From an archaeon (GTDB taxonomy: Archaea > Thermoproteota > Nitrososphaeria > Nitrososphaerales > Gagatemarchaeaceae): 43,611 bases of DNA. Shown here piece by piece: positions 20,116-36,169 of the stretch (its first letter is position 1; each line of letters opens with the position of its first letter). Position numbers and translations under genes: made by a program. The DNA lies in assembly GCA_021848045.1 (NCBI GenBank), contig JAJZNC010000023.1, forward strand, positions 45,984 through 89,594. The letters run 5' to 3'. The notes below the pieces were generated by a model that was given only the letters and a program-made list of their open reading frames with translations, was not told the origin of the DNA and made no database searches.

Positions 20116-21456
20116 ATGGAGGGCAGGACGTCTTGCGAGCGGACGGTGAGGCAGGAGCTCGCGAACGTCTCGAGCTACGACAAGAGGCTGGCCGCCTTCG
20201 TCACCGTCTTCGGAGGGGAGCACGGAGCGGCGCTCGCGCGCGCCCGGGAGCTCGACGCGGGGCTCAGGGCGGGGAGGGCGGGGAGGGCGTCAGGCCTCTT
20301 CGGGGTTCCCCTCGCGATAAAGGACAACATCTTCCTGGGGGGGTTCCGGACGACCGCGGCGACCTCCTACTTCAAGGACTTCGTCCCGGCGTTCAACGCC
20401 GACGTCGTGGACGCCGCCCTCGCCGCAGGCGGAGTCCCCCTCGGTAAGACCAACATGCACGAGCTCGCGCTGGGAGGGACCTCCGCAGCGTCGCTCTTCG
20501 GGCCCGTCAGGAACCCCTACGACTCGGACAGGGTGGCAGGGGGCTCCAGCGGAGGGTCGGCGGTCGCCGTCGCGCTCTCGAGGGGACCCGTACTGGGCAT
20601 AGGGACGGACACCGGCGGGTCGATCAGGGTCCCAGCCGCGTTGTGCGGGGTCGTCGGGTTCAAGCCTACGATAGGCGTGCTGTCGCTGGGAGGCACGCTC
20701 CCCCTCAGCGGCACCCTCGACCACCTCGGCCTCCTCACGAGGACCGTCCCCGACATGGTCGCCTCGTTCGAGGCTCTCGCGGGGAGGGGAGCCCCGAGAA
20801 GGGCTGTCGGCAGGAAGGTGAAGGTCGGCGCCCTGACAGGGTACTATCTGGAGGAGACCGAGGAGAGGGTGGCCAGGGACTACTGGAGGGCACTCGGGCG
20901 GATGGAGGCGTCCGGCAGGTTCTCGGTGGAGGAGGTCCCGACAGGTAGGGACTACGAGAGGTTCATGAGGGCGAGGGGGGTCATCCAGCTCAAGGAGGCC
21001 TCGTGGTTCTACAAGGAGCTGGTGAGGTCGAAGGCGGCATCGTCCAAGATGAACCCCGACGTGGTGACCCTGCTCAGGAGGGGGCTAGGGCTCGGCGACC
21101 TCCGCTACATGGAGGCAGACCTCGTGAGGCTGGAGTCAATACGAGTCTTCGGCGGCCTCCTCGAAGGGCTGGACGTGCTCGCGACCCCGACGACCAGCGT
21201 CACCGCCCCCAGGATCGAGGACGTCATCGGGAAGGAGGCGGGGCGGCTCAGGCGCCTCCTGCTCAGGAACCTCGAGGTCTTCAACCTCTGCGGCTTCCCA
21301 GCGCTGAGCATCCCGGCGAACCCCGGATCGGGCGGGCTGCCTTCAGGGATCCAGCTGGTGGGGCGGCTACGGGAGGACTCGAGCGTCCTGCGGGCGGGGC
21401 GGCTCGCGGCGGAGGCGATATCGGGGCTGAAGGTAGGGGCTACCGCAGGCGCCTGA
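20116..21456 (+). CDS. Amidase signature family hydrolase
   Basis: The 446-residue protein has the amidase core: GVPLAIKDN (Lys69), the Gly/Ser box AGGSSGGSAVAVA (Ser145) and TDTGGSIRVPA (Ser169), forming the Lys-Ser-Ser triad, then GTLDHLGLLTRT. It hydrolyses a carboxamide; GatA lacks this context here (no GatB or GatC), so a free amidase is likelier. Coding appears to extend upstream of the ATG at 20116: codons 20089-20115 read EFSEYHDAL, a typical family first helix. No ATG, GTG or TTG is in frame there. An ATG at 20087 is one base out of frame. It overlaps the convergent hydrolase by 17 bases. Confidence 0.88.
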   Translation: MEGRTSCERTVRQELANVSSYDKRLAAFVTVFGGEHGAALARARELDAGLRAGRAGRASGLFGVPLAIKDNIFLGGFRTTAATSYFKDFVPAFNADVVDAALAAGGVPLGKTNMHELALGGTSAASLFGPVRNPYDSDRVAGGSSGGSAVAVALSRGPVLGIGTDTGGSIRVPAALCGVVGFKPTIGVLSLGGTLPLSGTLDHLGLLTRTVPDMVASFEALAGRGAPRRAVGRKVKVGALTGYYLEETEERVARDYWRALGRMEASGRFSVEEVPTGRDYERFMRARGVIQLKEASWFYKELVRSKAASSKMNPDVVTLLRRGLGLGDLRYMEADLVRLESIRVFGGLLEGLDVLATPTTSVTAPRIEDVIGKEAGRLRRLLLRNLEVFNLCGFPALSIPANPGSGGLPSGIQLVGRLREDSSVLRAGRLAAEAISGLKVGATAGA

Positions 21457-22105
21457 CGAGGTCCCTCGAGCCGGTCACTCCGCAGAGGTACCAGTAGCGT
21501 ACGTACTGGAGGCCCACCCGGTGCTGGACCTCGCTGAAGGCCTCAACCCCGTCCTCCACGACCTCTGTCTCGTACCTCCTGAAGAACGCGTCCGCAGCCG
21601 TGTGCCTGACGCAGCAGTCGGTGGTCACCCCTGCGATGACGAGGGTGTTCGCCCCCCTCCCTCCGTAGAGCCCCCGGAGGACGTCGTCGAGCTCCGTCGC
21701 CTGGAAGCTGCTGTAGGTCGACTTTGGCACGACGTGGTCCCCCTTCCTGGGCGCGAGCTCGGGTATCACCTGCGCGCCCTTCGTGCCCCTCATCGCGTGG
21801 GCCTCCCACCGGTTGAGCTCAAAGTCGGAGGGCTTGTGCGAGTCGTTGCAGTATACCACTGGGACACCGCTCGCCCTCGAGGCGTCGAGGACAGCTGCGA
21901 CGTTGGGGATCTTCGGGACCATCCTCTCGCACCTCAGCACGCCGTAGACGAAGTCCTCGACCATGTCGACCACGAGCACCGCCCGACGGCGGTCCTTCTC
22001 GTAGACCTTCGGGGGCTTGAAGGAAGAGGGAGGGTAGACCGCGGCCGCGGCTTCCAGCTCGGCCGTGGCTCTCCCTTCCTTGCCGTGCCCGTGTGCAGAG
22101 GGCAT
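21440..22105 (-). CDS. Cysteine hydrolase, isochorismatase/nicotinamidase superfamily
   Basis: The 221-residue protein has the catalytic triad of the superfamily: Asp47 (VVDMVEDF), Lys128 (VPKSTYSSF) and Cys165 (TTDCCVRHTA). YCNDSH at 86-90 is a likely metal-binding part. These enzymes hydrolyse nicotinamide, N-carbamoyl compounds or isochorismate. Position and motifs favour a nicotinamidase/carbamoylase-like reaction over isochorismatase. The first 35 residues are an extra disordered tail. The TATA box at 22128-22136 supports the ATG. It is convergent with the amidase, so any joint pathway is only a suggestion. Confidence 0.85.
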   Translation of the reverse strand: MPSAHGHGKEGRATAELEAAAAVYPPSSFKPPKVYEKDRRRAVLVVDMVEDFVYGVLRCERMVPKIPNVAAVLDASRASGVPVVYCNDSHKPSDFELNRWEAHAMRGTKGAQVIPELAPRKGDHVVPKSTYSSFQATELDDVLRGLYGGRGANTLVIAGVTTDCCVRHTAADAFFRRYETEVVEDGVEAFSEVQHRVGLQYVRYWYLCGVTGSRDLVRRLR

Positions 22106-22805: not shown

Positions 22806-23242
22806 CACAGACCTCACCAACTCACGCCGCGCGTACTGCCGGAGATAATAGCAACCCTGCCCTCCGCGGACCCGGTGAGGGCGAGACGGCCAGAGGTCGT
22901 AGGGTCTCCTTCAGCGAGGAGGAGTTCAGGTTCCTCTCCCAGGCAAGGCTTGCCAGGGTCGCCACGGCCGCGTCCGACGGGCAGCCGCACGTGGTGCCCG
23001 TGGCGTACGAGTTCGACGGGACGTCGTTCTACTTCGCTGGGAGGGGGCTGGAGAGGACCTTGAAGTTCAGGAACCTCCGGGAGAACAAGAAGGTCGCCCT
23101 CGTCGTCGACGACCTGCTGACGGTCTGCCCGTGGAGGCCGCGAGGGATAGAGGTCAGGGGAGAGGCCCAGCTCTGCGTCGAAGGCGGGCGGGCTTACGTT
23201 AGGGTCGCCCCGTCGTTGAAGCGGAGCTGGGGCTTCCTCTAG
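22769..23242 (+). CDS. PPOX-class flavin/F420-binding protein
   Basis: The conserved part begins near 22901: FSEEEFRFLSQARLARVATA, then DGQPHVVPVAYEFDGTSFYF, KFRNLRENKKVALVVDD, and a C-terminal YVRVAPSLKRSWGF. This is the split-barrel fold of pyridoxamine-phosphate-oxidase-like, Rv1155-type proteins, many of which use F420H2 or flavin. The listed start is an ATG inside the HxlR gene. A TATA box at 22844-22851 instead points to about 22875, where a GTG lies one base out of frame; in the gene's frame the next codons read EGETARGRR. So the mature protein is probably near 121-122 residues. It is convergent with aguA, overlapping by 4 bases. Confidence 0.8.
   Translation: MGGQVGKVPAAVAQTSPTHAARTAGDNSNPALRGPGEGETARGRRVSFSEEEFRFLSQARLARVATAASDGQPHVVPVAYEFDGTSFYFAGRGLERTLKFRNLRENKKVALVVDDLLTVCPWRPRGIEVRGEAQLCVEGGRAYVRVAPSLKRSWGFL
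22844..22851 (+). promoter_or_regulatory. TATA box of the PPOX-class gene
   Basis: GATAATAG lies 24-31 bases ahead of the GTG at 22875, which is one base out of frame with the gene. Confidence 0.55.
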
Positions 23243-24288
23243 GCCGCCGGCTGCTGCTGGGTCACGCAGTGGATCCCGCCGAACCCATACACGAGCTCCC
23301 TCGACGGGACGGGGACCACCTTCCGCCCAGGGAGAAGGTCGGCGAGCGTCTCGAGGGCGGCGCTGTCCCTCCTGGCGTCTCCGAAGACCGGGACGAGGAC
23401 CGCCGAGTTACCGATGTAGAAGTTGGCGTAGCTCGCAGGGAGCCTTCCGTCCTCCGCTTCCACCTTCCCCGGCATAGAGATCTTGACGACCTCGAGCCTC
23501 CTGCCCTCATCGTCCCTGTGGCCGGATAGGATCGAAGCGTCGCGCGCCAGCGCCCCGTGGTTGGGGTCCCGCACGTCCCCCTCAGCCATGCAGACGACGG
23601 TGTCCTCGTTGACGAAACGCGCGATGTCGTCGACGTGGCCGTCGGTGTCGTCCCCCTCGACCCCCTGCCCGAGCCAGACCACGCTGGTCGCACCGAGGTA
23701 GTCGCGCAGCAACGCCTCGAGCTGGCGCTTGCCGAGCCGCGGGTTCCTGTTCTTGTTCAGGAGGCACTGCTCGGTGGTGAGGAGCGAACCTCTGCCGTTG
23801 GCGTCTATCGAGCCTCCCTCCAACACCACCCCGGGCTCGAACGTGCGCAGGCCGGCCGCCCTCGCGACCTCGAGCCCAGCGCCGTTGTCCAACAGGAGGT
23901 CGTCGTACTTGCGCCCCCAGGCGTTGAACTCCCACTTGGTCGCGCCCACCTCCCAGCCCTTCCCCCGGGCGCGCCTCACGAAGATGGGCCCGTAGTCGCG
24001 GATCCAGACGTCCGCGCTGCGGATCCTGTGGAACTCGACGTTCTTTGCGGAGAGCATGGAGCGCACGCGGTCCTCGGCGCGCTCGTCGTCGACGAGGAGG
24101 TCGACCCGCTCCCCTCGAGCGAGAGCCTCCACCATGGTGACGTAGGCCTCCTCGACCTTGGGGAGGACTCCCTCGGGGAAGGTGAGCGGGTTCTTGGGCC
24201 AGGAGAGCCAGGTCGACTCGTGCCTCGCCCACTCGGGCGGCATGGAGAAGCCCAGCCTAAACGGGGTCTTCGTCTCGTCCCTGGCCAT
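23239..24288 (-). CDS. aguA: Agmatine deiminase
   Basis: The 349-residue protein is a peptidyl-arginine-deiminase-family agmatine deiminase, converting agmatine to N-carbamoylputrescine and ammonia. Landmarks are PPEWARHESTWLSWP at the N-terminus, WIRDYGPIFV, ATKWEFNAWG, LEGGSID, GDDTDGHVDDIARFV (catalytic His/Asp) and the C-terminal FGGIHCVTQQ with nucleophile Cys341. Length and motifs match AguA throughout. Its ATG follows the aguB stop by 8 bases, so the two are co-transcribed and form the two-step agmatine-to-putrescine route. The 3' end overlaps the PPOX-class gene stop by 4 bases. Confidence 0.94.
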   Translation of the reverse strand: MARDETKTPFRLGFSMPPEWARHESTWLSWPKNPLTFPEGVLPKVEEAYVTMVEALARGERVDLLVDDERAEDRVRSMLSAKNVEFHRIRSADVWIRDYGPIFVRRARGKGWEVGATKWEFNAWGRKYDDLLLDNGAGLEVARAAGLRTFEPGVVLEGGSIDANGRGSLLTTEQCLLNKNRNPRLGKRQLEALLRDYLGATSVVWLGQGVEGDDTDGHVDDIARFVNEDTVVCMAEGDVRDPNHGALARDASILSGHRDDEGRRLEVVKISMPGKVEAEDGRLPASYANFYIGNSAVLVPVFGDARRDSAALETLADLLPGRKVVPVPSRELVYGFGGIHCVTQQQPAA

Positions 24289-24296
24289 CGGGAACC

Positions 24297-25160
24297 CTAC
24301 TTCGCGATCCTACCGTAGGTCGAGGGGACGCGGTTCCTCAGGAAGCCCCACCCGGCCTCGACCTGACGCCCCAGCTCGAGGTCGCAGGTCGCGATCAGGA
24401 CCTGCTCCCTCTCGTCAGCCCTCGCAAGTACGGTCCCGAACTGGTCGCATACGAACGAGCCCCCCCAGAAGCCCGTCCTCCCCTCGCGGCCCACGCGGTT
24501 GACCGCGGCCACCACCATGCTGTTGGCGATGGCGTGCCCCCGCTGGACAGCCTCCCACGCCTCCTTCCAGTCCCCCTCCGCCTCGTCTATCCCGTCGACC
24601 CTCCCGATGGCCGTGGGGTAGAACAGCACCTCGGCGCCCATCAGCCTGTTCACCCTGGCGGGCTCGGGGAACCACTGGTCGAAGCATATCAGGACCCCGA
24701 CCCTCGCCCGCGAGGTCCTGAACACCCTGTAGGCCTTGCCGCTCGAGAAGTAGTCCTTCTCGTAGAACGCCTCGTCCTGGGGGACCTGGACCTTCCTGTA
24801 CCTCCCGAGCATCCTCCCTTTCTCGTCGAAGACCGCGGAGGTGTTGTAGAGCGCCCCGCCCGGCGCCCTCTCGTAGACCGACCCGCCCACCAGCGTCACG
24901 TTCGCTTCCCGCGCCGCCTGGGAGAGGCGCTTGGTCGTCGGCCCGGGGACGGGCTCGGGCTCGACATCCGCGCCCTCCGCCTGTGGGAAGTACCTGTAAG
25001 TGAAGAGCTCGGGGAGGCAGACTATGGAGGCCCCCCTCTGCGCGGCCGCGGCGACCATGGAGAGCGCCTTCGAGAGGTTCGCCTCCCTGTCGTCGCCCAT
25101 GGCCATCTGTACGAGGCCCAGGGTGACCTGGCGACCAGCCGCTCCTGACCCGTTCTTCAT
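24297..25160 (-). CDS. aguB: N-carbamoylputrescine amidase
   Basis: The 287-residue protein belongs to the nitrilase/CN-hydrolase superfamily, with the Glu51-Lys123-Cys159 triad (LPELF, YRKVQVPQDEAFYEKDYF, LICFDQWFPE). WFPE after the Cys and the GAEVLFYPTAIG stretch are typical of AguB, which splits N-carbamoylputrescine into putrescine, CO2 and ammonia. Linkage to aguA makes the call firm. Its ATG lies one base after the ppcA stop and its stop is 8 bases before aguA, so all three genes form one transcript. It is cytoplasmic and probably multimeric. Confidence 0.93.
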   Translation of the reverse strand: MKNGSGAAGRQVTLGLVQMAMGDDREANLSKALSMVAAAAQRGASIVCLPELFTYRYFPQAEGADVEPEPVPGPTTKRLSQAAREANVTLVGGSVYERAPGGALYNTSAVFDEKGRMLGRYRKVQVPQDEAFYEKDYFSSGKAYRVFRTSRARVGVLICFDQWFPEPARVNRLMGAEVLFYPTAIGRVDGIDEAEGDWKEAWEAVQRGHAIANSMVVAAVNRVGREGRTGFWGGSFVCDQFGTVLARADEREQVLIATCDLELGRQVEAGWGFLRNRVPSTYGRIAK

Positions 25161-25161
25161 C

Positions 25162-26748
25162 CTAACCCAGGCATCTTCTGAGCTTGGCCGCCTCTATGAA
25201 AGCGTTTGAGGCGCTGGACCGCTCGCCGTCCATCGCGGACATCATGAACGTGTTCACGAAGTTCTCGTGCTTCTTCGACCTGTTGTCGGAGGGGCCCAGG
25301 GGCAGCGAGAGCGTCTCCTCTATCGTCGATAGGTCCGCCATCACGTACCGGAGCGCGGTCTTGAGCTTCTCCCTGTTCATCTGGGTGATCTTTGCCATCA
25401 CGTCGTACTTGTCGACGAGGAGGTGGACCGTCTCCCACGAGACCAGAGACCCGGCCATGCGGTAGTCGTACTGGATGCACTTGTACGAGCGCTTGACCGC
25501 GTCGAACTCCCTGTCGGTCAGCGACCGGAGCGCCTGCGCCCCGATGAACTCTGGAGGGATCCCCACCGAGTAGAACGCCGCGGCGAAGGGTATCGCCCTC
25601 GGCATCGTGACCCCCTTGACCCTCCTGCTGTAGCCGAAGAGCCCTATGTGCAGCTTGCGGGCCCTCCTCGTGGGTATGAACGAGGCCACGTAGTTGATGA
25701 AGGGGGCGAGTATCTCGACCCTCGACTGGAAGACCGGGATCAGCTTCTTCATCGCCCCGTCGACCAGCGCGACGTCCTCCTCCGCTATCTCCTGGAGCTC
25801 GCCGTTGGGCAGCTCCTGGTTGAGCCTGGCGATCCCCCTCTCCGCCGCGTCGGCAGGGTAGTCGTAGCGGAAGGCCGACTGGATCGTGACCGTAGAGAGT
25901 CCCTTGTACTCGCTCAGGAAGTTGTCCAGGTTCTCTGGGTTGAGGTGCCCCCTGAAGGGCATCGTGCCCACACCCAGTATGGGGTTCATCTTCACCCCCG
26001 TCTGCTTCTGGATGCTGAGGAGCTTCCCGAGAGCTACCTTTGACAGGAGCACGGCGGTGATCAGGCCGTAGTTGAGCGCCGGGTCTGACCTCGCGATGAA
26101 CACCCTCATCACCTGCGGCTTCACCGCCTTCACGTACTCGTGGACTATCCTGTCTATCGACATCAGGCTCACCGCGTCCTCGACGAGCGGGATCGCGTCC
26201 ACCTTCTTCGGCATGAAGGAGCCCACCCAGTCCTTCACCTTCATCGTCCCGCCCAGGGAGACGTCCTCTATCCCCGCTATCGCCTTCCCGTAGCAACGGT
26301 CGAGCCACAGGAGCTCGGCCCCCTTGGTCGTGAAAGGCAGGATCACCGACGACACGGGGACGGTCTCCTTCTGGTAGAAGGCGCTGGCGACGTCGGCCTG
26401 GAGGGGGATCGACTGGAGCGTCTGCGTCACGATCTTGCGCTCCGCCTTCTCTACGAGCGGGTTGGGGATGCGGTACGTGAGGAAGATCCGGTCCCCGAAG
26501 ACGTTCTCCACGAAGTAGTCGGAGTACTTGCTCAGCAGCTTCCTCACGACGTTGGTGTCGACGTCCTTGCCCTCCGAGTCCCACATGACCTCGGTGCAAG
26601 CGAGCTTGCTGAAGGCGATGTACGCCTCGTCGAGCTCCGTCTCTCCTTCGATCACCCCGTTGGTCGAAGACGCCCAGGGCGGCGTGTTCGCGTTGTCTGG
26701 GTGCTGCGTCGTCATCGTCTTGGGAATGAATCTCTTCTCGTCTGCCAA
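25162..26748 (-). CDS. ppcA: Archaeal-type phosphoenolpyruvate carboxylase
   Basis: The 528-residue protein is the short archaeal PEPC, about half the size of the bacterial enzyme. Signatures include PKTMTTQHPDNANTPPW at the N-terminus, EVMWDSEGKDVD, FLTYRIPNP, VGTMPFRGHLNPEN, SAFRYDYP and the late SRRVKGVTMPRAIPFAAAFY. It makes oxaloacetate from PEP and bicarbonate, feeding the TCA cycle and amino acid synthesis. The C-terminus ends KLRRCLG, close to the usual N-G/L-G end. Start is TTG; a TATA box at 26781-26790 gives a short leader. It is the first gene of an operon with aguB and aguA. Confidence 0.95.
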   Translation of the reverse strand: MADEKRFIPKTMTTQHPDNANTPPWASSTNGVIEGETELDEAYIAFSKLACTEVMWDSEGKDVDTNVVRKLLSKYSDYFVENVFGDRIFLTYRIPNPLVEKAERKIVTQTLQSIPLQADVASAFYQKETVPVSSVILPFTTKGAELLWLDRCYGKAIAGIEDVSLGGTMKVKDWVGSFMPKKVDAIPLVEDAVSLMSIDRIVHEYVKAVKPQVMRVFIARSDPALNYGLITAVLLSKVALGKLLSIQKQTGVKMNPILGVGTMPFRGHLNPENLDNFLSEYKGLSTVTIQSAFRYDYPADAAERGIARLNQELPNGELQEIAEEDVALVDGAMKKLIPVFQSRVEILAPFINYVASFIPTRRARKLHIGLFGYSRRVKGVTMPRAIPFAAAFYSVGIPPEFIGAQALRSLTDREFDAVKRSYKCIQYDYRMAGSLVSWETVHLLVDKYDVMAKITQMNREKLKTALRYVMADLSTIEETLSLPLGPSDNRSKKHENFVNTFMMSAMDGERSSASNAFIEAAKLRRCLG

Positions 26749-26780
26749 GTTGTGCTAAGCGGGAGGGCTTCTCAACGAGA

Positions 26781-26790
26781 GATTATTATG
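26781..26790 (-). promoter_or_regulatory. TATA box of the ppcA-aguB-aguA operon
   Basis: Minus-strand CATAATAATC lies 33-42 bases ahead of the TTG at 26748, leaving a leader of roughly 10 bases. Confidence 0.55.
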
Positions 26791-26821
26791 TTAGACGCCG
26801 CCCCCCGGGGTCACTCGGACT

Positions 26822-26829
26822 CTTTATAT
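26822..26829 (+). promoter_or_regulatory. TATA box of the SRPBCC gene
   Basis: CTTTATAT lies 24-31 bases ahead of the ATG at 26853; one of the strongest TATA boxes here. Confidence 0.7.
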
Positions 26830-26852
26830 GCCGCGGCGGCCCCGCGAGCGAC

Positions 26853-27278
26853 ATGCCCACGAACTTCGAGGTCACGAAGCAGACGAAGGCACCCCTCGCG
26901 AAGGCGATGGACTACTACTTCCATCCGGAGAACCTCCCGAAGTTCCATCCGGGATTCGGGAAGGACGTCAAGGTGGTCAGCTCGGAGGGCGACACGATCG
27001 TCCTCGAGCAGCAGATGGAGATGATGGGCAGGAAGCTCCACGCGAAGAACAAGCTCACCAGGGACGTGGCAGGGCGCAAGTTCGAGGTCGACACGCTGGA
27101 AGGCGACGGCAGGGGCAGCAAGATATGGATCTCGCTCAAGGAGACCCCCTCAGGGACCGAGATCACGACCAAGGCGTCGATGGAGTTCGGCGCCCTGGGG
27201 TTCTTCATCAAGGGTCCCGCCAAGTCGAACTTCGAGAAGGTCGCCGACGAGGACGCAAAGGCCCTCGACACGCTCTGA
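26853..27278 (+). CDS. SRPBCC (START/polyketide-cyclase-like) ligand-binding protein
   Basis: The 141-residue protein shows the helix-grip order: an N-terminal strand FEVTKQTKAPLAKAMDYYFH, ENLPKFHPGF, a run of strands (VVSSEGDTIVLEQQM and later GTEITTKASMEFGALGF) and a long C-terminal helix (KSNFEKVADEDAKALDTL). Such proteins bind hydrophobic ligands in a deep pocket. No catalytic residue can be named. A strong TATA box at 26822-26829 suggests good expression. It converges on menA with 5 bases between stops; a role in quinone or lipid handling is only a guess from position. Confidence 0.75.
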   Translation: MPTNFEVTKQTKAPLAKAMDYYFHPENLPKFHPGFGKDVKVVSSEGDTIVLEQQMEMMGRKLHAKNKLTRDVAGRKFEVDTLEGDGRGSKIWISLKETPSGTEITTKASMEFGALGFFIKGPAKSNFEKVADEDAKALDTL

Positions 27279-27283
27279 GCGGC

Positions 27284-28150
27284 TCACATGAGAAGGACCG
27301 AGAGCGCCAGGAGCAGACCCACCAGCACGTGCATCCTCGCCGCCAACGGCACGGACCTGGCCCACGCCTCGCCTGATGCAAGCGTCCTGTAGGTTCGCAC
27401 CGCACCCGGCAGCGCCAGCCAGACGAGGAGCACCCAGGTCGACCCGGTGATCAGGGACGCGGGGACCGACCAGAGAAGAGCAGCGAGGAACAGCGCCAGG
27501 AGGAGGCCGGTCCCCCTCGCTCTGCCGATGAGGACTGCGAGCGTCCGCCTGCCGGCGGCGCGGTCCTTCTCGACGTCCCGCAGGTTGTTCGCGAGGAGTA
27601 TCGAGGTCACCATCAACCCGACGGGTATGGAGAAGAGGGCTGCCGGCCAGGACACCCGCCCTGATGCGGCCAGGGTGGTCGCGACGACCTCCACCGGGCC
27701 CATGAGCGCGCCGACAAGCACCTCGCCGAAGGGGGTGAACGACACGGGGCGAGGGCCCTCGGAGTAGGCCACCCCGGCCGCTATCGCAGCCAGCCCGAGG
27801 ACGAGCAGGACGAGCCCCCGCTCAAGCACCAGGAGGGTCCCCAGGAGGAACGCAGCCGCGTAGCACGCGACAGCGACCGCGAGGACGTCCCTTGGCTTGG
27901 TCTCCCCCGAGACGATCACACCGGCGATCCCTGGCGAGGGAGCCGTGTCCACTGCCCGGACGTAGTCCCCGTACTCGTTGAGCGTGTTGGTCGCGACCTG
28001 CATGAGGAAGGCCACGGCGAGGATGTCCATCCAGCTCAGGAGGCTGAAGCCCCCGACCCGGACCGCTATCGCCCCTCCGACGATGATCGGGACGGCGGTG
28101 GCAGCGAGGGTCGGGACCCGTGCGAGCCTCAGAAGCTGCCCCGCGTTCAT
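27284..28150 (-). CDS. menA: DHNA polyprenyltransferase (UbiA family)
   Basis: The 288-residue protein has eight or nine membrane helices and the two Asp-rich motifs of UbiA prenyltransferases: NTLNEYGDYVRAVD near residue 55 and NNLRDVEKDRAAGRRTL near 190. The N-E-x-x-D-Y form of the first motif suits MenA, which joins a polyprenyl diphosphate to 1,4-dihydroxy-2-naphthoate to give demethylmenaquinone in the membrane. Its ATG overlaps the menE stop (ATGA), placing it last in the men operon. Context makes MenA far likelier than heme O or tetraether-lipid UbiA enzymes. Confidence 0.93.
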   Translation of the reverse strand: MNAGQLLRLARVPTLAATAVPIIVGGAIAVRVGGFSLLSWMDILAVAFLMQVATNTLNEYGDYVRAVDTAPSPGIAGVIVSGETKPRDVLAVAVACYAAAFLLGTLLVLERGLVLLVLGLAAIAAGVAYSEGPRPVSFTPFGEVLVGALMGPVEVVATTLAASGRVSWPAALFSIPVGLMVTSILLANNLRDVEKDRAAGRRTLAVLIGRARGTGLLLALFLAALLWSVPASLITGSTWVLLVWLALPGAVRTYRTLASGEAWARSVPLAARMHVLVGLLLALSVLLM

Positions 28151-29631
28151 GGCCGCGCTGCCTCCTCGAAGAGCGCGCGGACGTCCCGCCTCCTGACCTT
28201 CCCCGTCGCGGTCCTCGGGAGGACGTCGAGGAAGAGGTAGCGCTTGGGGACCTTGTAGCGCGCGATCCGCTCCCTCAGGAACGAGGAGAGCTCGGAGTCC
28301 GAGGGCGCACGCCCTCCGGAGACCCCCTTGGCCTCAAGCGCCGCCGCCACAGCCTGCCCCCACCTCTCGTCCTCGACCCCCACCACCGCGGCGTCCTTCA
28401 CGGCGGGGTGCTCGCGCAGCGCGGCCTCGACCTCGGCAGGGAAGACCTTCTCGCCTCCGCTCACAATGACCTCCTCCTTCCTCCCGAGCACCAGCACACC
28501 GCCCTCGGCTCCGGGCTGTAGGACGCCCAGGTCACCCGTGAGGAGCCACCCGTCCCGGAACCGCGCCCTCGTGGGCCCGGGCCTGCGCCAGAGCCCCTTG
28601 AACACGGTCGGGCCCCGAACGACTATCTCCCCGGGCTCGCCGGGCGGCGCGAAGGCGAGCCGCCGCGTCGACCCGCTGGCGACGGCGACCTCGCTCGGGA
28701 GCAGCGGCGAGTAGGCGTCCCCCGACGCGTCGCAGAGGGCGACCTGCGAGCAGGTCTCGGTCATCCCGTAGGTCAGCAGGACGGGCAGGCGCTTGCGTCT
28801 GATAGCGGCGACGAGGGCGGCGGGGGGCTTGCCGCCGCCCAGGAAGATCGCCCTGAGGCTTGAGGGCGCCGGCGCCTCCCCCCGCGCTGCCACGACGTCC
28901 GTAAGCATGGTCGGCACGAAGGACACCAGGGTGACGCGGTCGTCGTCCAGCGAGGCGGAAACGCGGGCCGGGTCGAAGCTCTCGTGGATGACCAGCCCCG
29001 AGCCGTAGAGGAGGCTCCGGAATATTATGCTGTATCCGCCGACATGGAAGAGCGGCATGCAGAGAAGCCACCTGTCTTCGCAGGAGGCGCCGACCCTGAG
29101 CCCCACGGAGACCGCGTTCCACATCAGGTTGGAGAGCGTGAGCTCTGCGCCCTTGGGGGCGCCGCTCGAGCCCGAGGTGTAGACGATCGCGTGGGTCGCC
29201 GATAACCTCAGGCGCCCCCCCGCGACCGGCTCGACCCCCCTGGCGGCCGAGCGCTCGACGAGCGCCGAGGCGTCCTCGATGTCTGCCCCGCTCCCCTCGG
29301 GCACCGCGGCCGCGTCGTGCACCACGAGGGCGGGGCGCGAGTCCTTGATCTGCGCGACGAGCTCGGGCCCCGACTGGAGGTGGTTGAGCGGGACGGCGAC
29401 CGCGCCGAGCCTGGCGACCGCGTGGACGAGAGCGACGTAGGTGGAGCAGGGCCTCATCAGCAGGGCAAGCCTGTCGCCCCTCCTGAGGCCGCGCGAAGCC
29501 AGGACGCCGGCCAGCCGGCTCACCGTCCCCTGGAGCTCCCCGTAGGACGTCTCCTCGCCGCCCTCCTTGAGCGCGAGCGCCCTTGGCGAGGCCCTGGAGC
29601 GCCACAGGAGCCAGTCGGGGACCTCGCTCAA
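28147..29631 (-). CDS. menE: o-Succinylbenzoate-CoA ligase
   Basis: From the TTG at 29631 the protein has 494 residues, an adenylate-forming enzyme: the P-loop [40 protein letters not shown] (ATP-ribose binding Asp), [20 protein letters not shown] and the C-terminal [13 protein letters not shown] with the catalytic Lys. It turns o-succinylbenzoate, CoA and ATP into OSB-CoA. The start codon shares bases with the menB stop (TTGA), and its stop overlaps the menA start (ATGA). The open frame continues upstream inside menB, but homology begins at the TTG ([15 protein letters not shown]). Confidence 0.93.
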
Positions 29632-30476
29632 GGCATCCACGGGTACTTCTTGAAGTCGGGCTTCCTCTTCTCCAGGAAGGCGTCCCTTCCCTCCTTCGCC
29701 TCCTCGGTCATGTAGTAGAGCATGGTCGCGTCGCCCGCGAGCTCCTGGAGCCCCGAGAGCCCGTCGGTGTCTGCGTTGAAGGCGGCCTTGAGGAACCGTA
29801 TCGCGGTGGGGCTCTTCTCGAGGATCTCCTCCGCCCATTTCAGCGTCTCCGCCTCGAGCCGCGCGAGGGGGACCACCGCGTTCACGAGGCCCATCCGGAG
29901 GGCGTCCTTCGCGTCGTACCTCCTGCAGAGGAACCACACCTCCTTGGCCTTCTTGGTGCCCACCGCGCGAGCCAGGAGCCCCACCCCGAATCCCGCGTCG
30001 AAGCTCCCCACCCGCGGCCCGGTCTGCCCGAAGACGGCGTTGTCCGCGGCGATGGTGAGGTCGCAGACCAGGTGGAGGACGTGGCCGCCGCCTATCGCGT
30101 ACCCTGCCACCATGGCTATCACCGGCTTCGGGAGGCTACGTATCTGCTTCTGGAGGTCCAGGACGTTGAGCCGCGCCACCCCCGCCTTGTCGATGTAGCC
30201 CGCGTGCCCCCTCACGCTCTGGTCTCCCCCGGAGCAGAACGCCTTCTCGCCCGCCCCCGTCAGGATGGCCACCCCGATGCTCGGGTCGTTCCTCACGGTG
30301 GCGAGCGCCTCCGAGAGCTCGAAGAGCGTCTCCGGCCTGAAGGCGTTCCTCACCCTGGGCCGGTTGATTGTGAGCTTCGCGACGCCACCCCTCCGCTCGA
30401 AGAGGATGTCCTCGTAGTCCTTGACGGACCGCCAGCCGTCCTGCCCGTCCTTGTCAGCGCGTTGTGCTTTGTTCAT
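29628..30476 (-). CDS. menB: 1,4-Dihydroxy-2-naphthoyl-CoA synthase
   Basis: From the ATG at 30476 the product has 282 residues, the usual MenB size. Crotonase-fold markers fit Men[50 protein letters not shown] (oxyanion hole and a MenB-specific segment), [20 protein letters not shown] and the late [14 protein letters not shown]. It closes the second ring of the naphthoquinone from OSB-CoA. It starts within the menH stop (ATGA) and ends within the menE start (TTGA), so coupling is tight on both sides. Confidence 0.96.
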
Positions 30477-31348
30477 CGTGACCTTCCCCGTCGTGGCGTC
30501 GAGGACGCCCTGAGAGGAGGGGAGCCGCCCCCGACGAACTCCTCGACCAGGTCGACGAACTCTGCGGGCTTGTCGAGGTGGACGCAGTGGCCGGCGCCGT
30601 CGACCTCGGCGAGGGAGCTGCCGGGTATCCGCGCCCACATATCCATCCCGACCTCGGCGTACTTGCGGTCCGCGCTCCCGACCACGACCAGCACGCGCGT
30701 GGCGATCCCCCCGAGCTCGTCCCAGAGGGGGGCCATCTCTCCCGTCCCCGCGGCGCGCAGGCTCATCGCCAGTCCCCTCGCTGTGTTGGAGAGGCGGTCG
30801 CGCCTGATCGCATCGAAGGCCTCTGGAGGGAGGAGCCGCTGGTGGGCGAAGAGAGGCGTGTCCTGCCAGTAGTCCACGAACCACTCCAGGCCCCTGAGCT
30901 CGATATCGTGGGCGAGTGCGCGGTCTGCCCTCCGCCTCTCCTCCCTCTCCTCTGGCAGTCGGAGCCCCGGAGATGCGCCCTCCAGCACGAGGCACGAGAG
31001 GCGCCCAGGGTGCCTGGCCGCGAGGTCGAGCGCCACCCTCCCGCCCAGGGAGTATCCGACGAGCGCGACCCTCCGTCCGCGACAGACCGCGTCCATGAGC
31101 CTGAGGACGGCGTCGGCGGTCGCTCTGACGCTCATGGAAGCCGAGGAGCGCTGTGTCGCTGACCTTCCGTGACCCGGGAGGTCCGGCATTATGAGGAAGC
31201 AGGTCTTGCCGAGGCGGTCGGCCAACGCGTCCCAGGTCCGGTGCGTCCCGGTGAAACCGTGGAGCAGGACCATCGGGGGGCGCGACCTGCCCCCCCTCGT
31301 CTCGAACCAGACGCGCGGGGTCGCCCCGCGTCCCTTCAGGGTGGGCAA
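30473..31348 (-). CDS. menH: SHCHC synthase-like alpha/beta hydrolase
   Basis: The 291-residue protein has the alpha/beta hydrolase fold with [13 protein letters not shown] (oxyanion loop), nucleophile elbow [11 protein letters not shown] (Ser), a late GSADRKY acid region and [11 protein letters not shown] with the catalytic His. Position between menD and menB fits MenH, which eliminates pyruvate from SEPHCHC to give SHCHC. The G-F-T-G and S-L-G-G-R details are as in MenH. Start is TTG one base after the menD stop; its own stop overlaps menB (ATGA). The C-terminal 20 residues are an extra basic tail. Confidence 0.9.
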
Positions 31349-31349
31349 G

Positions 31350-33107
31350 TCAGGCCGGCGCCTCCTCGCTCCCCGGGGGAGCCGCCAGGGCCTTGAAGGC
31401 CGCCCTGTGGAGCTCGACGTTGCGCTCCCTGTCCTCGGCCATCAGCTCGATGACCCTGAGACCCTTCGCGCCCGCCGACGAACCCAGGGCGCGCTCTAGG
31501 CCGGCCCAGTCGGAGACGCGGTGGAACTTCCCGCCGTAGAGCGTGCTCACGCCGGAGAAGTCGATGTCGTGCGCCTCCCCGAAGAGCCTCTCGAAGACCT
31601 CCTTCGGGAGAGAGTGCTGCGGGAGGAAGGAGAAGATCCCACCCCCCCTGTTGTTCACGACTATCACCGTCGCGTTAAGATGGTGGAGCCTGGAGGCGAG
31701 CAGCCCGTTCGTGTCGTGGTAGAACGACACGTCCCCGAGGACGAGGAGGACGTCGCCCTCCGCAGCCGCGACCCCCATCGCGGTGGAAACCACCCCGTCT
31801 ATGCCGTTTGCACCCCTGTTTGCCACCAGCCGCACGTTCTTGCTCCCGCGGAGGAAGAAGTAGTCAAGGTCCCGGACAGGCATGCTGCTTCCGACCACGA
31901 CCGTGAGCGGGGCCGCTGGCCTCAGCATCTTCGAGAGGAGGTGGAACAGCTTCCCCTCGAACAGCTCCGCGACCGCCCCCATCATCGAGTCCATCCTCGC
32001 CTCGGCGTCGGCTGAGGCAGACTCCCAGACGCGCCGCCATCCCGGGTCGGGCCCGGGTCCTGCCCCGACCGCCCTCTGCAAGGAGCGGACGGAGTGCTCG
32101 AGGTCCCCGAAGACGAAGGCCGAGGCGGCGAAGTCAGGGTCGCGCCACCCTTCGGCGTCGTCGAGGATGACGGTGGTCGCCCCCTGGCAGAAGAGGTTCA
32201 ACTCCTTCGAGGTGGGCACCCCGCCTATCCTGAGGACGCAGTCAGGCTTGCGCGCCTGGAAGGCCTCGCTGCGGACAAGCGGCTCGTAGCACCGCACGAC
32301 CCCGCCGTTGACGGCCCCGTCTTGCCGCAGGTTGGAGAGCGCGTCCGCGAGCAGGGGCCAGCCGAGCCGCTCGGAGAGCGCCGATAGCGCACCCCGCAGC
32401 CCCACGGGGTACTCCCCCGGACCAGCCACAATCAGGCCCTTTGCGTGGGAGCCCAGCTCGGCGGCGACCCCGTTCAGGCTCGCCTCGTCTGCGAAGGCCC
32501 TCGCGCCCACGACCACGACCGCCCGCGTGCCTCCCCGTGAGTATGCGCCGGGAGAGGGCGAGTCCGGCAGGAGCGGCTCCCTGAACGAGAAATTGACGTG
32601 GACAGGGCCGCGAGGCTGGGACAGGGCGGTGTGCGATGCTCTCGCCCCCACAATCCGCGAGTAGCGGGCGAGCAGCCCCGGGTCGGCCGCCAGCGGAAGG
32701 TCCTGGAACCACTTCGCGTGCGAGCCGAAGAGGCCCACCTGGTCGATCGTCTGGGCTCCCCCGAAGTCCCTCGACTCTGGCGGCCGGTCTGCGGTGACCG
32801 CCACCAGGGGGACGCGCCCCAGCCTGGCCTCGGCCACGGCAGGCAGCAGGTTGGCGGCGGCCGTCCCTGACGTGGAGACCACGGCCACCGGCGAGCCCGA
32901 GCTCTTCGCCACCCCCAGGGCGAAGAAGGCGGCCGACCGCTCGTCGAAGAGGACCCACTGCCGCACATCCCCCGCCCGCCTCGCGAGCGCGAGCGCGATC
33001 GGCGTCGACCTGGACCCTGGGCAGATCACCGCATCCCTGCAGCCGCCGTCGATCAGGCCGTCGACGAAGGCCTGGACGTACTCCCCGAGGGCGTCCGTGC
33101 CTGTCAG
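31350..33107 (-). CDS. menD: SEPHCHC synthase, with an apparent CTG start
   Basis: The 585-residue thiamine-diphosphate enzyme adds 2-oxoglutarate-derived succinic semialdehyde to isochorismate. Motifs are ICPGSRSTPIALAL, FDERSAAFFALG (ThDP-activating Glu), STSGTAAANLLPAV, ADRPPESRD, and the ThDP-binding LGDVSFYHDTNGLL with NNRGGGIFSFLP. The N-terminus LTGTDALGEYVQAFVDGL is the expected family start. No ATG, GTG or TTG lies in frame at that point. A CTG at 33107 overlaps the menF stop as CTGA, just as ATGA and TTGA overlaps join other genes of this operon. CTG initiation coupled to menF is the simplest reading. Confidence 0.93.
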   Translation of the reverse strand: MTGTDALGEYVQAFVDGLIDGGCRDAVICPGSRSTPIALALARRAGDVRQWVLFDERSAAFFALGVAKSSGSPVAVVSTSGTAAANLLPAVAEARLGRVPLVAVTADRPPESRDFGGAQTIDQVGLFGSHAKWFQDLPLAADPGLLARYSRIVGARASHTALSQPRGPVHVNFSFREPLLPDSPSPGAYSRGGTRAVVVVGARAFADEASLNGVAAELGSHAKGLIVAGPGEYPVGLRGALSALSERLGWPLLADALSNLRQDGAVNGGVVRCYEPLVRSEAFQARKPDCVLRIGGVPTSKELNLFCQGATTVILDDAEGWRDPDFAASAFVFGDLEHSVRSLQRAVGAGPGPDPGWRRVWESASADAEARMDSMMGAVAELFEGKLFHLLSKMLRPAAPLTVVVGSSMPVRDLDYFFLRGSKNVRLVANRGANGIDGVVSTAMGVAAAEGDVLLVLGDVSFYHDTNGLLASRLHHLNATVIVVNNRGGGIFSFLPQHSLPKEVFERLFGEAHDIDFSGVSTLYGGKFHRVSDWAGLERALGSSAGAKGLRVIELMAEDRERNVELHRAAFKALAAPPGSEEAPA

Positions 33108-34576
33108 CCTCCCTCGAGGCCGAGCGCCCGCCTCATCACGGCGAGCTTCCAGCCGGTCTCTTCGAGCTCGAGCCTCGGCTCCGAGCCCTCGACCACCCCC
33201 ACCCCCGCGTAGATCGTCGCGTCCCTCCCTCTGACTATCCCAGACCTTATCCCCACGGCGAGGGAGGCCTCGCCGCCGTACGCGTCCACGACCCCCACCA
33301 CCCCCGAGAACCACCCCCTGTCGAGCTCCTCGGAACTCTGTATCCAGCGGACGGCGCCCTCCCTGGGCTCCCCCGCTATCGCCGGGTTCGGCCAGAGGGC
33401 GCGCGCGACGGCCCACGCGTCGACCCCCTTGAGGAGGGTGGCCCTCAGCGGCGTGTAGAGGTGCTGGATGGTGGCCAGCTTCTTCAGGACAGGAGACCGG
33501 GGGGCCTCGAGCGTCGAGCTCATTGGGGAGAGAGCGGCCACGGCCGCCTGGACGACCAGCCTGTGCTCCGTGCCCGACTTTCGGTCGCCCAGGAGCTGCT
33601 CTCCCAGGAGGTCGTCGGAGGCTGCGTCGTCGCTCCTCGACGAGGAGGCTGCGAGGCAGTCGACCTCGACCCGCCCGCCCTTCGCCGTGAAGAGGCTCTC
33701 CGGGGTCGCACCCAGGAAGACGGCACCCCTCCTCTTGACCGCGAAGGTCGTGGCGCCCGGGTTGAGCGAGGCGAGCCTCTCGACGACCGCGGAGGGCGGG
33801 ACGACGCCGGCGAACCTGAGGGCCACAGACCGGGAGAGCACGACCTTCTTCAGGTCGCCGCGGGAGATCGACCGTACTAGCCTCTCGGCCAGAGAGAGCC
33901 ACCGCGCCTCAGAGGGGAGGCTCCTCGACGATGCGAGGCGAGGGAGCGAGCGCGATGGCGCCCCCCTGGCGTCGAGCACCCCCAGGAGCCTCCTGTAGCG
34001 GGCGGCCAGGGCGGCCGCGTTCGAGGACGGCGCTGCGGGGACCACGAGCGCGACCCTGGCGCCGCCGCCCTGCGACGTCAGGGCGACTGCAGGGACGACC
34101 CATCGGGAGGGCGGAAAGTCCCGCCAGATCCCCGCCCGGCTCCGACCCGCGGGGGCGGGAAAGCCCCACCCACCCACGACCCTGACCGCATGCGCGTCTC
34201 CCGTGAGGTGGTAGCCGCGCAAGGACGGCACCTCGGTCTCGAGAGAGCAGGCGGCGCCCACTCCCAGGAACGTAGTCCCTCCCTGCCCGAAGAAGAACGC
34301 GTCCTCCACGGAAGAGTCGAGGACGTCGACGGAGGGCTCCCAATCGAGGGGCCTCGAACCGGCGTGGAGGACCGGGCCGCCCCTCTCCTCGGCCTTGGAG
34401 ACCGCCTCGGACGCGAGGCCGTCTGCCCATAGTCCCAGCTCCGCCCACCTCCCACGCGGCTCCTCGAGCGACTGGGGTGAGGCTCTTCGCTGGTTCGTCG
34501 TAGGGGTCCTCTCCTGGTCATTACCACTGACAAGTGGTATTAAGCGTTTTTCGGTTCTCCTAACTCTTCGGGACAT
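33104..34576 (-). CDS. menF: Isochorismate synthase
   Basis: A chorismate-binding enzyme: DLKKVVLSRSVAL, FLGATPESLF, HLYTPLRATLL, LWPNPAIAGEP, the W-F-S-G-V-V-G-V-V-D region, and GRDATIYAGVGVVEGSEP with a Mg2+-binding Glu. It isomerises chorismate, the first committed step. The in-frame ATG at 34576 is listed, but its first 19 codons (RRTEKRLIPLVSGN) are AT-rich and unlike coding DNA. They contain a TATA-like CTTAATA and the dyad at 34522-34539. Good codons begin at GAC just after an ATG at 34521 whose G is the first base of that GAC. So the natural start is probably 34521 with a one-base frame problem. The result would be about 472 residues. Confidence 0.92.
   Translation of the reverse strand: MSRRVRRTEKRLIPLVSGNDQERTPTTNQRRASPQSLEEPRGRWAELGLWADGLASEAVSKAEERGGPVLHAGSRPLDWEPSVDVLDSSVEDAFFFGQGGTTFLGVGAACSLETEVPSLRGYHLTGDAHAVRVVGGWGFPAPAGRSRAGIWRDFPPSRWVVPAVALTSQGGGARVALVVPAAPSSNAAALAARYRRLLGVLDARGAPSRSLPRLASSRSLPSEARWLSLAERLVRSISRGDLKKVVLSRSVALRFAGVVPPSAVVERLASLNPGATTFAVKRRGAVFLGATPESLFTAKGGRVEVDCLAASSSRSDDAASDDLLGEQLLGDRKSGTEHRLVVQAAVAALSPMSSTLEAPRSPVLKKLATIQHLYTPLRATLLKGVDAWAVARALWPNPAIAGEPREGAVRWIQSSEELDRGWFSGVVGVVDAYGGEASLAVGIRSGIVRGRDATIYAGVGVVEGSEPRLELEETGWKLAVMRRALGLEGG
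34522..34544. promoter_or_regulatory. menF promoter with an 18-bp dyad operator
   Basis: TACCACTGACAAGTGGTA (34522-34539) is a perfect inverted repeat with 7-bp arms and a 4-bp spacer. It directly abuts the ATG at 34521 and overlaps the minus-strand TATA-like CTTAATA (34538-34544). A dimer bound here would cover the transcription start of the whole menF-D-H-B-E-A operon, so it is a strong candidate operator. The regulator is unknown. Confidence 0.6.
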
Positions 34577-34631
34577 GGGCGCGTCTTAGAGCGGCATTAA
34601 CTGTCGGGACATCGCGCTAATCCAGTGTAGC

Positions 34632-34638
34632 CTTAATT
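34632..34638 (+). promoter_or_regulatory. TATA box of the AT-richer 107-aa gene
   Basis: CTTAATT lies 24-30 bases ahead of the ATG at 34662. Confidence 0.55.
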
Positions 34639-34661
34639 CCAAGCTGGGGCGTCCCAATTTC

Positions 34662-34985
34662 ATGGGACGCATAATAACAAACCTGCCAAAAGATGCAAGC
34701 TATACCTATCCTGATGGGTTCAAGAGGAAAGGCAAGGTGTTGAAGGCGACAGAGCCTTCCTACATCTCTTCGCCACATGGGGATTACGCCTGTCGAATCG
34801 AATTGATGTCATTTGAGGACGGCCCTGACAAATTCGTTCGCTTTGCCTATTACAGAAGACCCCCAGAAAAGAGAAGGGATGAGAATGGTTGGAATTGGGC
34901 AGCTCAATGGACTTGGAGTTTCGACGTGAAGACAACGAGGGAGCAAGTCGAAAGAGCTACGGCGATGGGTCTTCTTGACGCCTAG
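34662..34985 (+). CDS. Uncharacterised protein, 107 aa, atypical base composition
   Basis: The 107 residues look like a compact beta-rich protein: TNLPKDASYTYPDGFKRKGK, a middle ACRIELMSFEDG, YYRRPPEKRRDENGWNWAAQ and WTWSFDVKTTREQVERATAM. Four Trp lie within about 15 residues. I do not recognise the family. Codons such as ATA, ACA, AAA, TAT and TTG are frequent, while the rest of the window is G/C-ended, so the gene was probably acquired recently from a lower-GC source. It sits between the divergent menF and menC genes with its own TATA box. Nothing ties it functionally to menaquinone. Confidence 0.6.
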   Translation: MGRIITNLPKDASYTYPDGFKRKGKVLKATEPSYISSPHGDYACRIELMSFEDGPDKFVRFAYYRRPPEKRRDENGWNWAAQWTWSFDVKTTREQVERATAMGLLDA

Positions 34986-34986
34986 A

Positions 34987-35022
34987 GGCATTCTGAATCA
35001 GAGTCAGCCAAGGGTTCTGTCC
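34987..35022 (-). pseudogene. Short coding remnant, copy B (G-Q-N-P-WLTLIQNA)
   Basis: On the minus strand twelve codons read GQNPWLTLIQNA, close to GENRWLTIIQNA at 333-368. The frame continues to a TAG near 34957. It lies at the 3' edge of the AT-richer islet between menF and menC, so it may be the end of the element that brought the islet. The original gene is unknown. Confidence 0.35.
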
Positions 35023-35049
35023 CTCGACCTTAATTCCCGCCGCCCAAAC

Positions 35050-35056
35050 GTTAAAG
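35050..35056 (+). promoter_or_regulatory. TATA box of menC
   Basis: GTTAAAG lies 25-31 bases ahead of the TTG at 35081. Confidence 0.6.
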
Positions 35057-35080
35057 GCGGCGCCACGGCCTCGGAGCTCG

Positions 35081-36169
35081 TTGCACCTCCGCGTCAGGCA
35101 CGTCAAGACGCCACTCCGGTCGCCCTTCTCCAACAGCGCGGGGTCGACGGTCGCGCGGAGCGCCCTCATCCTGGAGCTGGAGCACGGAGGGGTGACGGCT
35201 CTCTCCGAGTGCGTCGCAGGGGACACCCCCTCGTTCACAGGCGAGGACAACGCGACCGCGCTCCGGGACATCAGGGGGTTCGCGGGGCACCTCAGGGACG
35301 GGCCGACGAGTCCGGACGAGTTCCTCGAGAGGACGGAACGGGTCGAGGGTCGCCAGATGGCCAAGGCGGCGGTCGAGATGGTGCTCTGGGACTACTTGGC
35401 GAAGCGGGCGGGCCGCCCGCTGGACCGGGCGCTGGGGCGCTCCAGGGGGTACGCCGAAACGGGGATCGCGATAGGCCTGGAGGACCCCTCCAGGATGGTC
35501 TCGGAGGCGAAGGAGGCCGTGGCGCGCGGCTACAAGAGGGTCAAGGTGAAGGTGGCGAGGAAGGGCGGGGTCGAGGCCCTCAGGCGCCTCCGGGAGGCCC
35601 TCCCGGAATTCCCGCTGAGCGCGGACGCGAACGGCTGCTTCTCCTTCCCGGGGGACCTGCCCGCCCTCAAGGAGATCGACAGGTTCGGGCTCGTCTACCT
35701 CGAGCAGCCCCTGGGGTTCGGCGACCTGGAAGGGCACGCCAGGCTCGCGAAGGAGGTCTCAACCCCGATCTGCCTAGACGAGACCGTCTTGACCCTGGAG
35801 GGGGCTGAGGACGCCCTCCGGATCGGGGCGGCCGAGGTGATCAACGTCAAACCAGGGAGGGTCGGCGGGCTCTCGGTCGCCATGGAGATCGCCAGGATGG
35901 CGAGAGGGCGCCGCGCGCACGCCTGGGTGGGCGGGATGCTCGAGACCGGGGTCGGCAGGGCGTCCAACGTCGCCCTGGCCTCGCAGCCGGAGTTCGACTA
36001 TCCCGGGGACACATCTCCCAACGACCGGTACTTTGAGAGGGACATCGTGAGAAACCCGTTCGAGATGCGCGCCGGGAGGCTGGCCCCTGGCGAGGGACCT
36101 GGGATCGGCGTCGTGGTAGACGCCCCGGCGCTCGAAGCCTTCACGGTCGGGACCTGGGAGCTGCTCTAG
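35081..36169 (+). CDS. menC: o-Succinylbenzoate synthase (enolase superfamily)
   Basis: The 362-residue protein has the enolase-superfamily catalytic set: Lys155/Lys157 in YKRVKVKVAR, metal ligands Asp182 (SADANG), Glu208 (VYLEQPL) and Asp233 (CLDET), and the general-base Lys257 in INVKPGRVGG. The N-terminal capping domain begins MHLRVRHVKTPLRSPFSNS. It dehydrates SHCHC to o-succinylbenzoate. Related N-acylamino-acid racemases look alike, but the men genes next door decide for MenC. Start is TTG with a TATA box at 35050-35056. It is transcribed away from the menF operon and is the only men gene here on the plus strand. Confidence 0.93.
   Translation: MHLRVRHVKTPLRSPFSNSAGSTVARSALILELEHGGVTALSECVAGDTPSFTGEDNATALRDIRGFAGHLRDGPTSPDEFLERTERVEGRQMAKAAVEMVLWDYLAKRAGRPLDRALGRSRGYAETGIAIGLEDPSRMVSEAKEAVARGYKRVKVKVARKGGVEALRRLREALPEFPLSADANGCFSFPGDLPALKEIDRFGLVYLEQPLGFGDLEGHARLAKEVSTPICLDETVLTLEGAEDALRIGAAEVINVKPGRVGGLSVAMEIARMARGRRAHAWVGGMLETGVGRASNVALASQPEFDYPGDTSPNDRYFERDIVRNPFEMRAGRLAPGEGPGIGVVVDAPALEAFTVGTWELL

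Follow-up and report, generated by a model that had tools for sequence, protein, structure and literature searches.

Gene Content and Junctions

A phosphoenolpyruvate carboxylase (PEPC) and two enzymes expected to take agmatine to putrescine are encoded side by side in the DNA described here, a stretch of 43,611 nucleotides (the window) covering positions 45,984 to 89,594 of contig JAJZNC010000023.1 in assembly GCA_021848045.1, from an archaeon of the family Gagatemarchaeaceae (order Nitrososphaerales). Its genome, called G000 below, is a bin of 1.6 Mb that is 88% complete, and the window lies on contig G000:C32. The genes ppcA, aguB, and aguA are three separate open reading frames, not fusions (Table 1). 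The original prediction spaced them by 1 and 8 bases, and the open reading frame coordinates on the minus strand agree; its gene names hold as well. All three genes run in one direction, and their gaps stay short in relatives (1, 2, and 0 bases before aguB; 8 and 7 bases before aguA). With this arrangement, ppcA-aguB-aguA is most likely read as one transcript. The cluster is a real, tight, and lineage-specific grouping of ordinary enzymes that looks like the product of a local rearrangement.

Table 1. Features of the ppcA-aguB-aguA cluster, with positions in the window
Feature	Position	Strand	Remarks
ppcA, archaeal-type PEP carboxylase	25162-26748	-	528 amino acids, TTG start; TIGR02751, PF14010
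aguB, N-carbamoylputrescine amidase-like carbon-nitrogen (CN) hydrolase	24297-25160	-	287 amino acids; TIGR03381, PF00795
aguA, agmatine deiminase-like pentein	23239-24288	-	349 amino acids; PF04371, NF010070, TIGR03380
ppcA/aguB junction, 1 base (TAG G ATG)	25161	-	2 bases in G004, 0 in G007
aguB/aguA junction, 8 bases	24289-24296	-	7 bases in G004
15-base block TAACATAATAATCTC upstream of ppcA	26779-26793	-	Candidate promoter or operator; identical in the three linked genomes
Second AT-rich TATA-like box, for ppcA or the divergent gene 26853-27278	26819-26832	unassigned	Found by eye

Encoded Enzymes and Putrescine Synthesis

Judged by its sequence, PpcA is a full-length archaeal-type PEPC. 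It matches TIGR02751 over the whole profile (1-506 of 506) with 553 bits against a cut-off of 146, and it also matches PF14010. Among the columns with 95% or higher conservation across 77 other homologues, PpcA keeps 103 of 105 and differs at E134S and Y340F, while other rows tested deviate at 0 to 8 such columns. In its full-length family match and its near-invariant columns it resembles the archaeal-type enzyme with a solved relative, 3odm, from which it differs by the gene's position beside aguBA and by the Ser at residue 134. That residue is Glu in all 77 other rows and Ser in all three genomes that carry the linkage. PpcA would run the ordinary reaction, in which phosphoenolpyruvate (PEP) and bicarbonate yield oxaloacetate. 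Its nearest homologues come from the Thaumarchaeota bins AcS1-13 and palsa_1368 (89 and 88% identity); the next ones, at 57-60%, include that of 'Candidatus Gagatemarchaeum stordalenia', whose ppcA is identical to the one in G001, a congener discussed below. These matches point to a position in or near the soil family Gagatemarchaeaceae.

AguB carries the CN hydrolase domain PF00795 (198 bits). Its best match in the PDB is the plant N-carbamoylputrescine amidohydrolase 5h8i, with which Glu51, Lys123, and Cys159 align, residues which we take to be the Glu-Lys-Cys catalytic triad of the nitrilase superfamily. AguA carries the pentein family domain PF04371 (387 bits), and its His218, Asp220, and Cys341 are aligned with the triad of the Medicago agmatine iminohydrolase (His224, Asp226, and Cys366), as given in an excerpt of PMC6447857. 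The best PDB matches of the two proteins include agmatine deiminases and N-carbamoylputrescine amidohydrolase. AguA would thus turn agmatine into N-carbamoylputrescine, and AguB would turn the latter into putrescine, CO2, and NH3.

The genomic context of this route was followed in a close sample of 61 relatives, 8 of which are genomes of the genus (G000 included). Pyruvoyl arginine decarboxylase (PF01862) is present in seven of the eight genus genomes, G000 among them, and the agmatinase/arginase family PF00491 in none of the eight, so aguBA is probably the agmatine-to-putrescine route of the genus. PF04371 is likewise found in 7/8. The decarboxylase gene of G000 sits on contig G000:C11, apart from the contig of the cluster. 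Across the close sample, PF00491 occurs in 46 of 61 relatives, in 13/26 of those bearing PF04371 versus 33/35 of those without it (Fisher p = 1.4e-4, which is indicative only as the genomes are not independent). The N-carbamoylputrescine route is therefore pointed to as probable for a genus that lacks the agmatinase family common in the rest of the order. AdoMet_dc (PF02675) has no match in the eight genus genomes. Matches to PF02784, among which arginine and diaminopimelate decarboxylases are not told apart, occur in 12 of 13 genomes and not in G000.

Pseudomonas aeruginosa offers the bacterial version of this gene pair, an aguBA operon with aguB directly upstream of aguA; the gene order is the same, and the same two reactions are expected here. 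No ppcA is known to stand in front of that operon, which is tied to agmatine use, whereas the archaeal aguBA is probably biosynthetic. The route from arginine through agmatine and N-carbamoylputrescine to putrescine is the same as that described for Bacteroides thetaiotaomicron and Campylobacter jejuni in the consulted part of PMC10135574, although the arginine decarboxylase there is SpeA and here is of the pyruvoyl type (PF01862). Ammonia-oxidizing archaea carry speB, mostly in two to three copies, and aguAB is present in some nitrifying bacteria, according to a section of PMC10753782.

Distribution of the Linkage

Within the close sample, ppcA is found in 13 relatives, PF04371 in 26, and both in 8. 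Three of these eight, G000, G004, and G007 (the linked trio), have ppcA joined to aguB. The pairing, for which the original prediction knew of no counterpart, is thus shared by two congeners, and an assembly error in a single genome does not account for the ppcA-aguB junction. Absence of the linkage from every relative, which would have refuted the original prediction, is not what is seen. The contig of G007 stops inside aguB, and the aguA of this genome, interrupted by an NN gap, sits at the end of a different contig, so the third member of the cluster is presumed there. The unlinked congeners G001, G002, G003, and G006 have ppcA and aguBA on different contigs with different neighbors, and in G049, also unlinked, ppcA and the agu genes are ~340 kb apart. 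The host is a genus of non-ammonia-oxidizing soil Nitrososphaerales, and the cluster is confined to one branch.

The linkage is equally restricted on a broader scale. In a phylum sample of 398 genomes, 171 have ppcA, 31 have PF04371 above the cut-off, and 25 have both, of which G000 alone shows the linkage. The other 24 comprise 5 with the genes on the same contig at a distance of at least 48 kb and 19 with the genes on different contigs, the ends of which were not all checked. A survey of 80 loci around ppcA homologues in genome contigs (flanks of at most 6 kb, many ended by contig ends) found AguB or AguA genes adjoining only in L014 and L015, both congeners, and the idea of a widespread archaeal linkage was rejected. 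The literature retrieved on PEPC and agmatine contains no title that treats a ppcA-aguBA linkage, and the main text of PMC10640624, on the family Gagatemarchaeaceae, lacks all six terms related to PEPC, polyamines, or menaquinone that were looked for.

Two single sequences from these comparisons deserve mention. At L064:4708-5436 (Thermoprotei archaeon B40_G2), a CN hydrolase with 26% identity to AguB ends 565 bases upstream of ppcA on the same strand; it was judged to be a different enzyme. The AguB fragment of G007 (L160:1-407, at the end of contig G007:C75) is like that of the trio for ~59 residues and then switches; the remainder most resembles the G049 protein (54%) and AguBs from other families. 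Either true recombination or faulty assembly near the end of the contig may explain the change.

Age and Conservation of the Junction

The aguB-aguA pair is an older unit than the join of ppcA to aguB. It is adjacent in 24 of the 26 relatives with PF04371, and the two exceptions, G007 and G034, are both fragmentary. The ppcA-aguB junction is itself old and kept, because four-fold synonymous sites in the trio are near saturation, with identities of 49, 49, and 59% in ppcA and 38-65% in neighboring genes. It also remained intact next to insertions that fall on differing sides of the cluster: in G004, ~5 kb lie between ppcA and an SRPBCC gene, and in G007 the isochorismatase and HxlR genes are separated by additional genes. 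Much more than the cluster has been preserved, however. When the window is compared with G004:C49, 30 of the 31 called genes at 13030-43609 have counterparts there in unchanged order, including one that is just 32% identical. As the whole neighborhood is collinear with G004, the linkage in the trio is weak and not independent evidence of joint function.

In the ppcA tree, the trio forms a group (100/100) inside an 11-row clade of the family (100/100), and the trio is also together in the AguA tree (99/97). PpcA is 88-89% identical inside the trio versus 71-80% among the unlinked congeners. No such excess conservation is seen in AguA (74-76 versus 70-82%), and EF-2 is 89% identical between G000 and G007, over part of the protein only, versus 88-92% among the unlinked congeners. 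The high amino acid identity could suggest a recent horizontal spread of ppcA in the trio, a possibility set aside because its four-fold sites are as diverged as those of the neighbors. A foreign origin, as suggested by the long ppcA branch, is weakened by the EF-2 distances: a trio representative is 82-83% identical to the unlinked congeners and 80-83% to other genera of the family. Shared synteny around ppcA between linked and unlinked congeners was likewise discarded, the short-chain dehydrogenase and Usp genes in question being only 28-35% identical.

Sequences Upstream of ppcA and aguB

The region ahead of aguB differs between linked and unlinked genomes. In G001, G002, G003, and G006, the aguB start is closely preceded by a TATA-like box (TTTAAATTT or ATTTAAGCC), and in the trio the place of this box is taken by the final coding sequence of ppcA. 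This 3' end of ppcA has no clear TATA box, unlike the upstream region of aguB in the congeners. Ahead of ppcA, the trio shares the 15-base block of Table 1, followed by a TCTC-N3 to N5-GAGA repeat. The 14-base core of the block has one match in the window at up to two mismatches and none in 100 shuffles. Of 264 loci, 8 contain it, and each is a copy of the site upstream of ppcA in one of the trio genomes. The second AT-rich box, farther upstream, may act as the TATA box for either ppcA or the divergent gene, and a similar box is seen by eye upstream of ppcA in G004 and G007. In unlinked relatives, ppcA is preceded by an element resembling TTAATCTA (exact in 4/8, variants in 4/8); its likeness to the trio block, noted by eye, is weak and was not retained.

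Origin and Function of the Join

The account that we consider probable is that ppcA, together with its promoter, came to lie directly before aguB, so that aguBA is now co-transcribed from the ppcA promoter. The older pair aguB-aguA would make putrescine from agmatine, for which the source would be the pyruvoyl arginine decarboxylase encoded at another site. The move of ppcA and its upstream promoter region directly in front of aguB would have cost aguBA the site of its own promoter, as seen in congeners, leaving the pair to be transcribed from that of ppcA. On this view, the two biosynthetic functions should be expressed together. The locus would be a small, clear case of unrelated enzymes being brought into one archaeal operon, with a housekeeping gene taking the place of the promoter-like box of aguBA.

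Several observations weigh against this account. An internal promoter may lie inside the 3' end of ppcA, and the collinearity with G004 beyond the cluster may mean that the kept linkage is mere inertia. The position of the trio beside the four unlinked congeners in the ppcA tree has weak support (90/70), and an approximately unbiased (AU) test does not reject a tree in which the trio's ppcA falls outside its relatives in the family (p = 0.177). The tree is compatible both with relocation of the genus's own ppcA and with a copy acquired from a close relative. Finally, the best match of AguB among 11 NCBIfam families, TIGR03381, reaches 242 bits, under its cut-off of 410, and AguA stays under the equivalog cut-offs of NF010070 (297 versus 483 bits) and TIGR03380 (281 versus 382 bits). 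Both proteins are therefore recognizable but divergent, and AguA is classed as agmatine deiminase-like with a predicted function.

A functional reason for the join may be sought in the arginine-polyamine branch. PpcA would supply oxaloacetate for making aspartate and also arginine, from which agmatine is derived, and ppcA and aguBA would be co-expressed for growth-linked polyamine synthesis. A gene neighborhood of PEPC and the arginine pathway does exist elsewhere, since ppc of E. coli K-12 adjoins argE-argCBH. The greater conservation of PpcA in the linked genomes, with EF-2 about equal in both groups, is also in line with this idea. However, the E. coli arrangement is not a comparable operon: the gap is 597 bases, the PEPC is of the bacterial type, and the linked genes serve arginine synthesis, not agmatine use. 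In addition, the archaeal cluster contains no arginine biosynthesis gene and is found in one lineage only, and we regard this explanation as unlikely. A more elaborate reading, in which oxaloacetate supply and putrescine synthesis are wired under one conserved promoter with a short operator-like repeat as a deliberate control of carbon and nitrogen or of growth rate, appears rather improbable to us. In that case the higher conservation of PpcA after the join and its loss of an otherwise universal Glu may mark changed regulation of the enzyme.

Two other possibilities were weighed. The shortfall of AguA and AguB, both well under the curated cut-offs, would be expected if they acted on another guanidino or carbamoyl compound and the cluster were not about putrescine, and the tail of the G007 AguB fragment, nearer to AguBs of other families, speaks against this. 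So do the catalytic residues retained in both proteins, their best PDB matches, and a genus that has arginine decarboxylase without the agmatinase family, which together make another substrate quite improbable. It is very unlikely, in our estimate, that ppcA and aguBA are adjacent by chance and are regulated or transcribed separately, with an aguBA promoter inside ppcA. Such a promoter might be represented by the AT-rich CTTTCATAGA, ~40-50 bases before the aguB start and conserved though coding (by eye), and the collinearity of the whole window with G004 includes genes of unrelated function. Against it, gaps of 0-2 bases have been kept across near-saturated synonymous divergence, and the 3' end of ppcA lacks the clear TATA box seen upstream of aguB in congeners.

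Carbon recapture, the purpose originally proposed for the operon, is the explanation to which we give least credence: PpcA would refix the CO2 released by AguB as bicarbonate, or the operon would couple ammonia release to the supply of carbon skeletons. In its favor, three genomes have kept a tight and ancient junction, enzymes of the N-carbamoylputrescine amidase type release CO2 and ammonia (PMC10135574, in the part cited above), and PEPC fixes bicarbonate (PMC8100219, in an excerpt). Because PEPC uses bicarbonate, the CO2 released by AguB must first be hydrated, by a carbonic anhydrase or in some other way. Putrescine synthesis would in general carry little flux compared with the supply of oxaloacetate. 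A recapture module should be linked wherever both enzymes occur, and the linkage is missing in 5 of the 8 relatives and 24 of the 25 phylum genomes with both genes, 19 of the 24 having them on different contigs with ends that were not all checked. The three genes are not fused, and arginine decarboxylase, the pathway's other source of CO2, is encoded on a separate contig. With the linkage confined to the trio and the neighborhood collinear with G004, no finding positively favors recapture as the purpose behind the linkage, and neither form of the proposed purpose could be upheld.

Neighboring Genes

The isochorismatase-family gene at 21440-22105 is 65% identical to its G007 counterpart but only 32% to the gene in the same place in G004, as if the gene had been exchanged in G004. 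On the other side of the cluster, 27284-36169 encodes UbiA/MenA, enoyl-CoA hydratase, alpha/beta hydrolase, chorismate-binding, and enolase-like (MR_MLE) domains, a group that looks like a menaquinone synthesis cluster. Farther along, a stand-alone LigD 3'-phosphoesterase domain protein (39707-40282) is encoded beside a Cdc48-type AAA ATPase (37487-39649).

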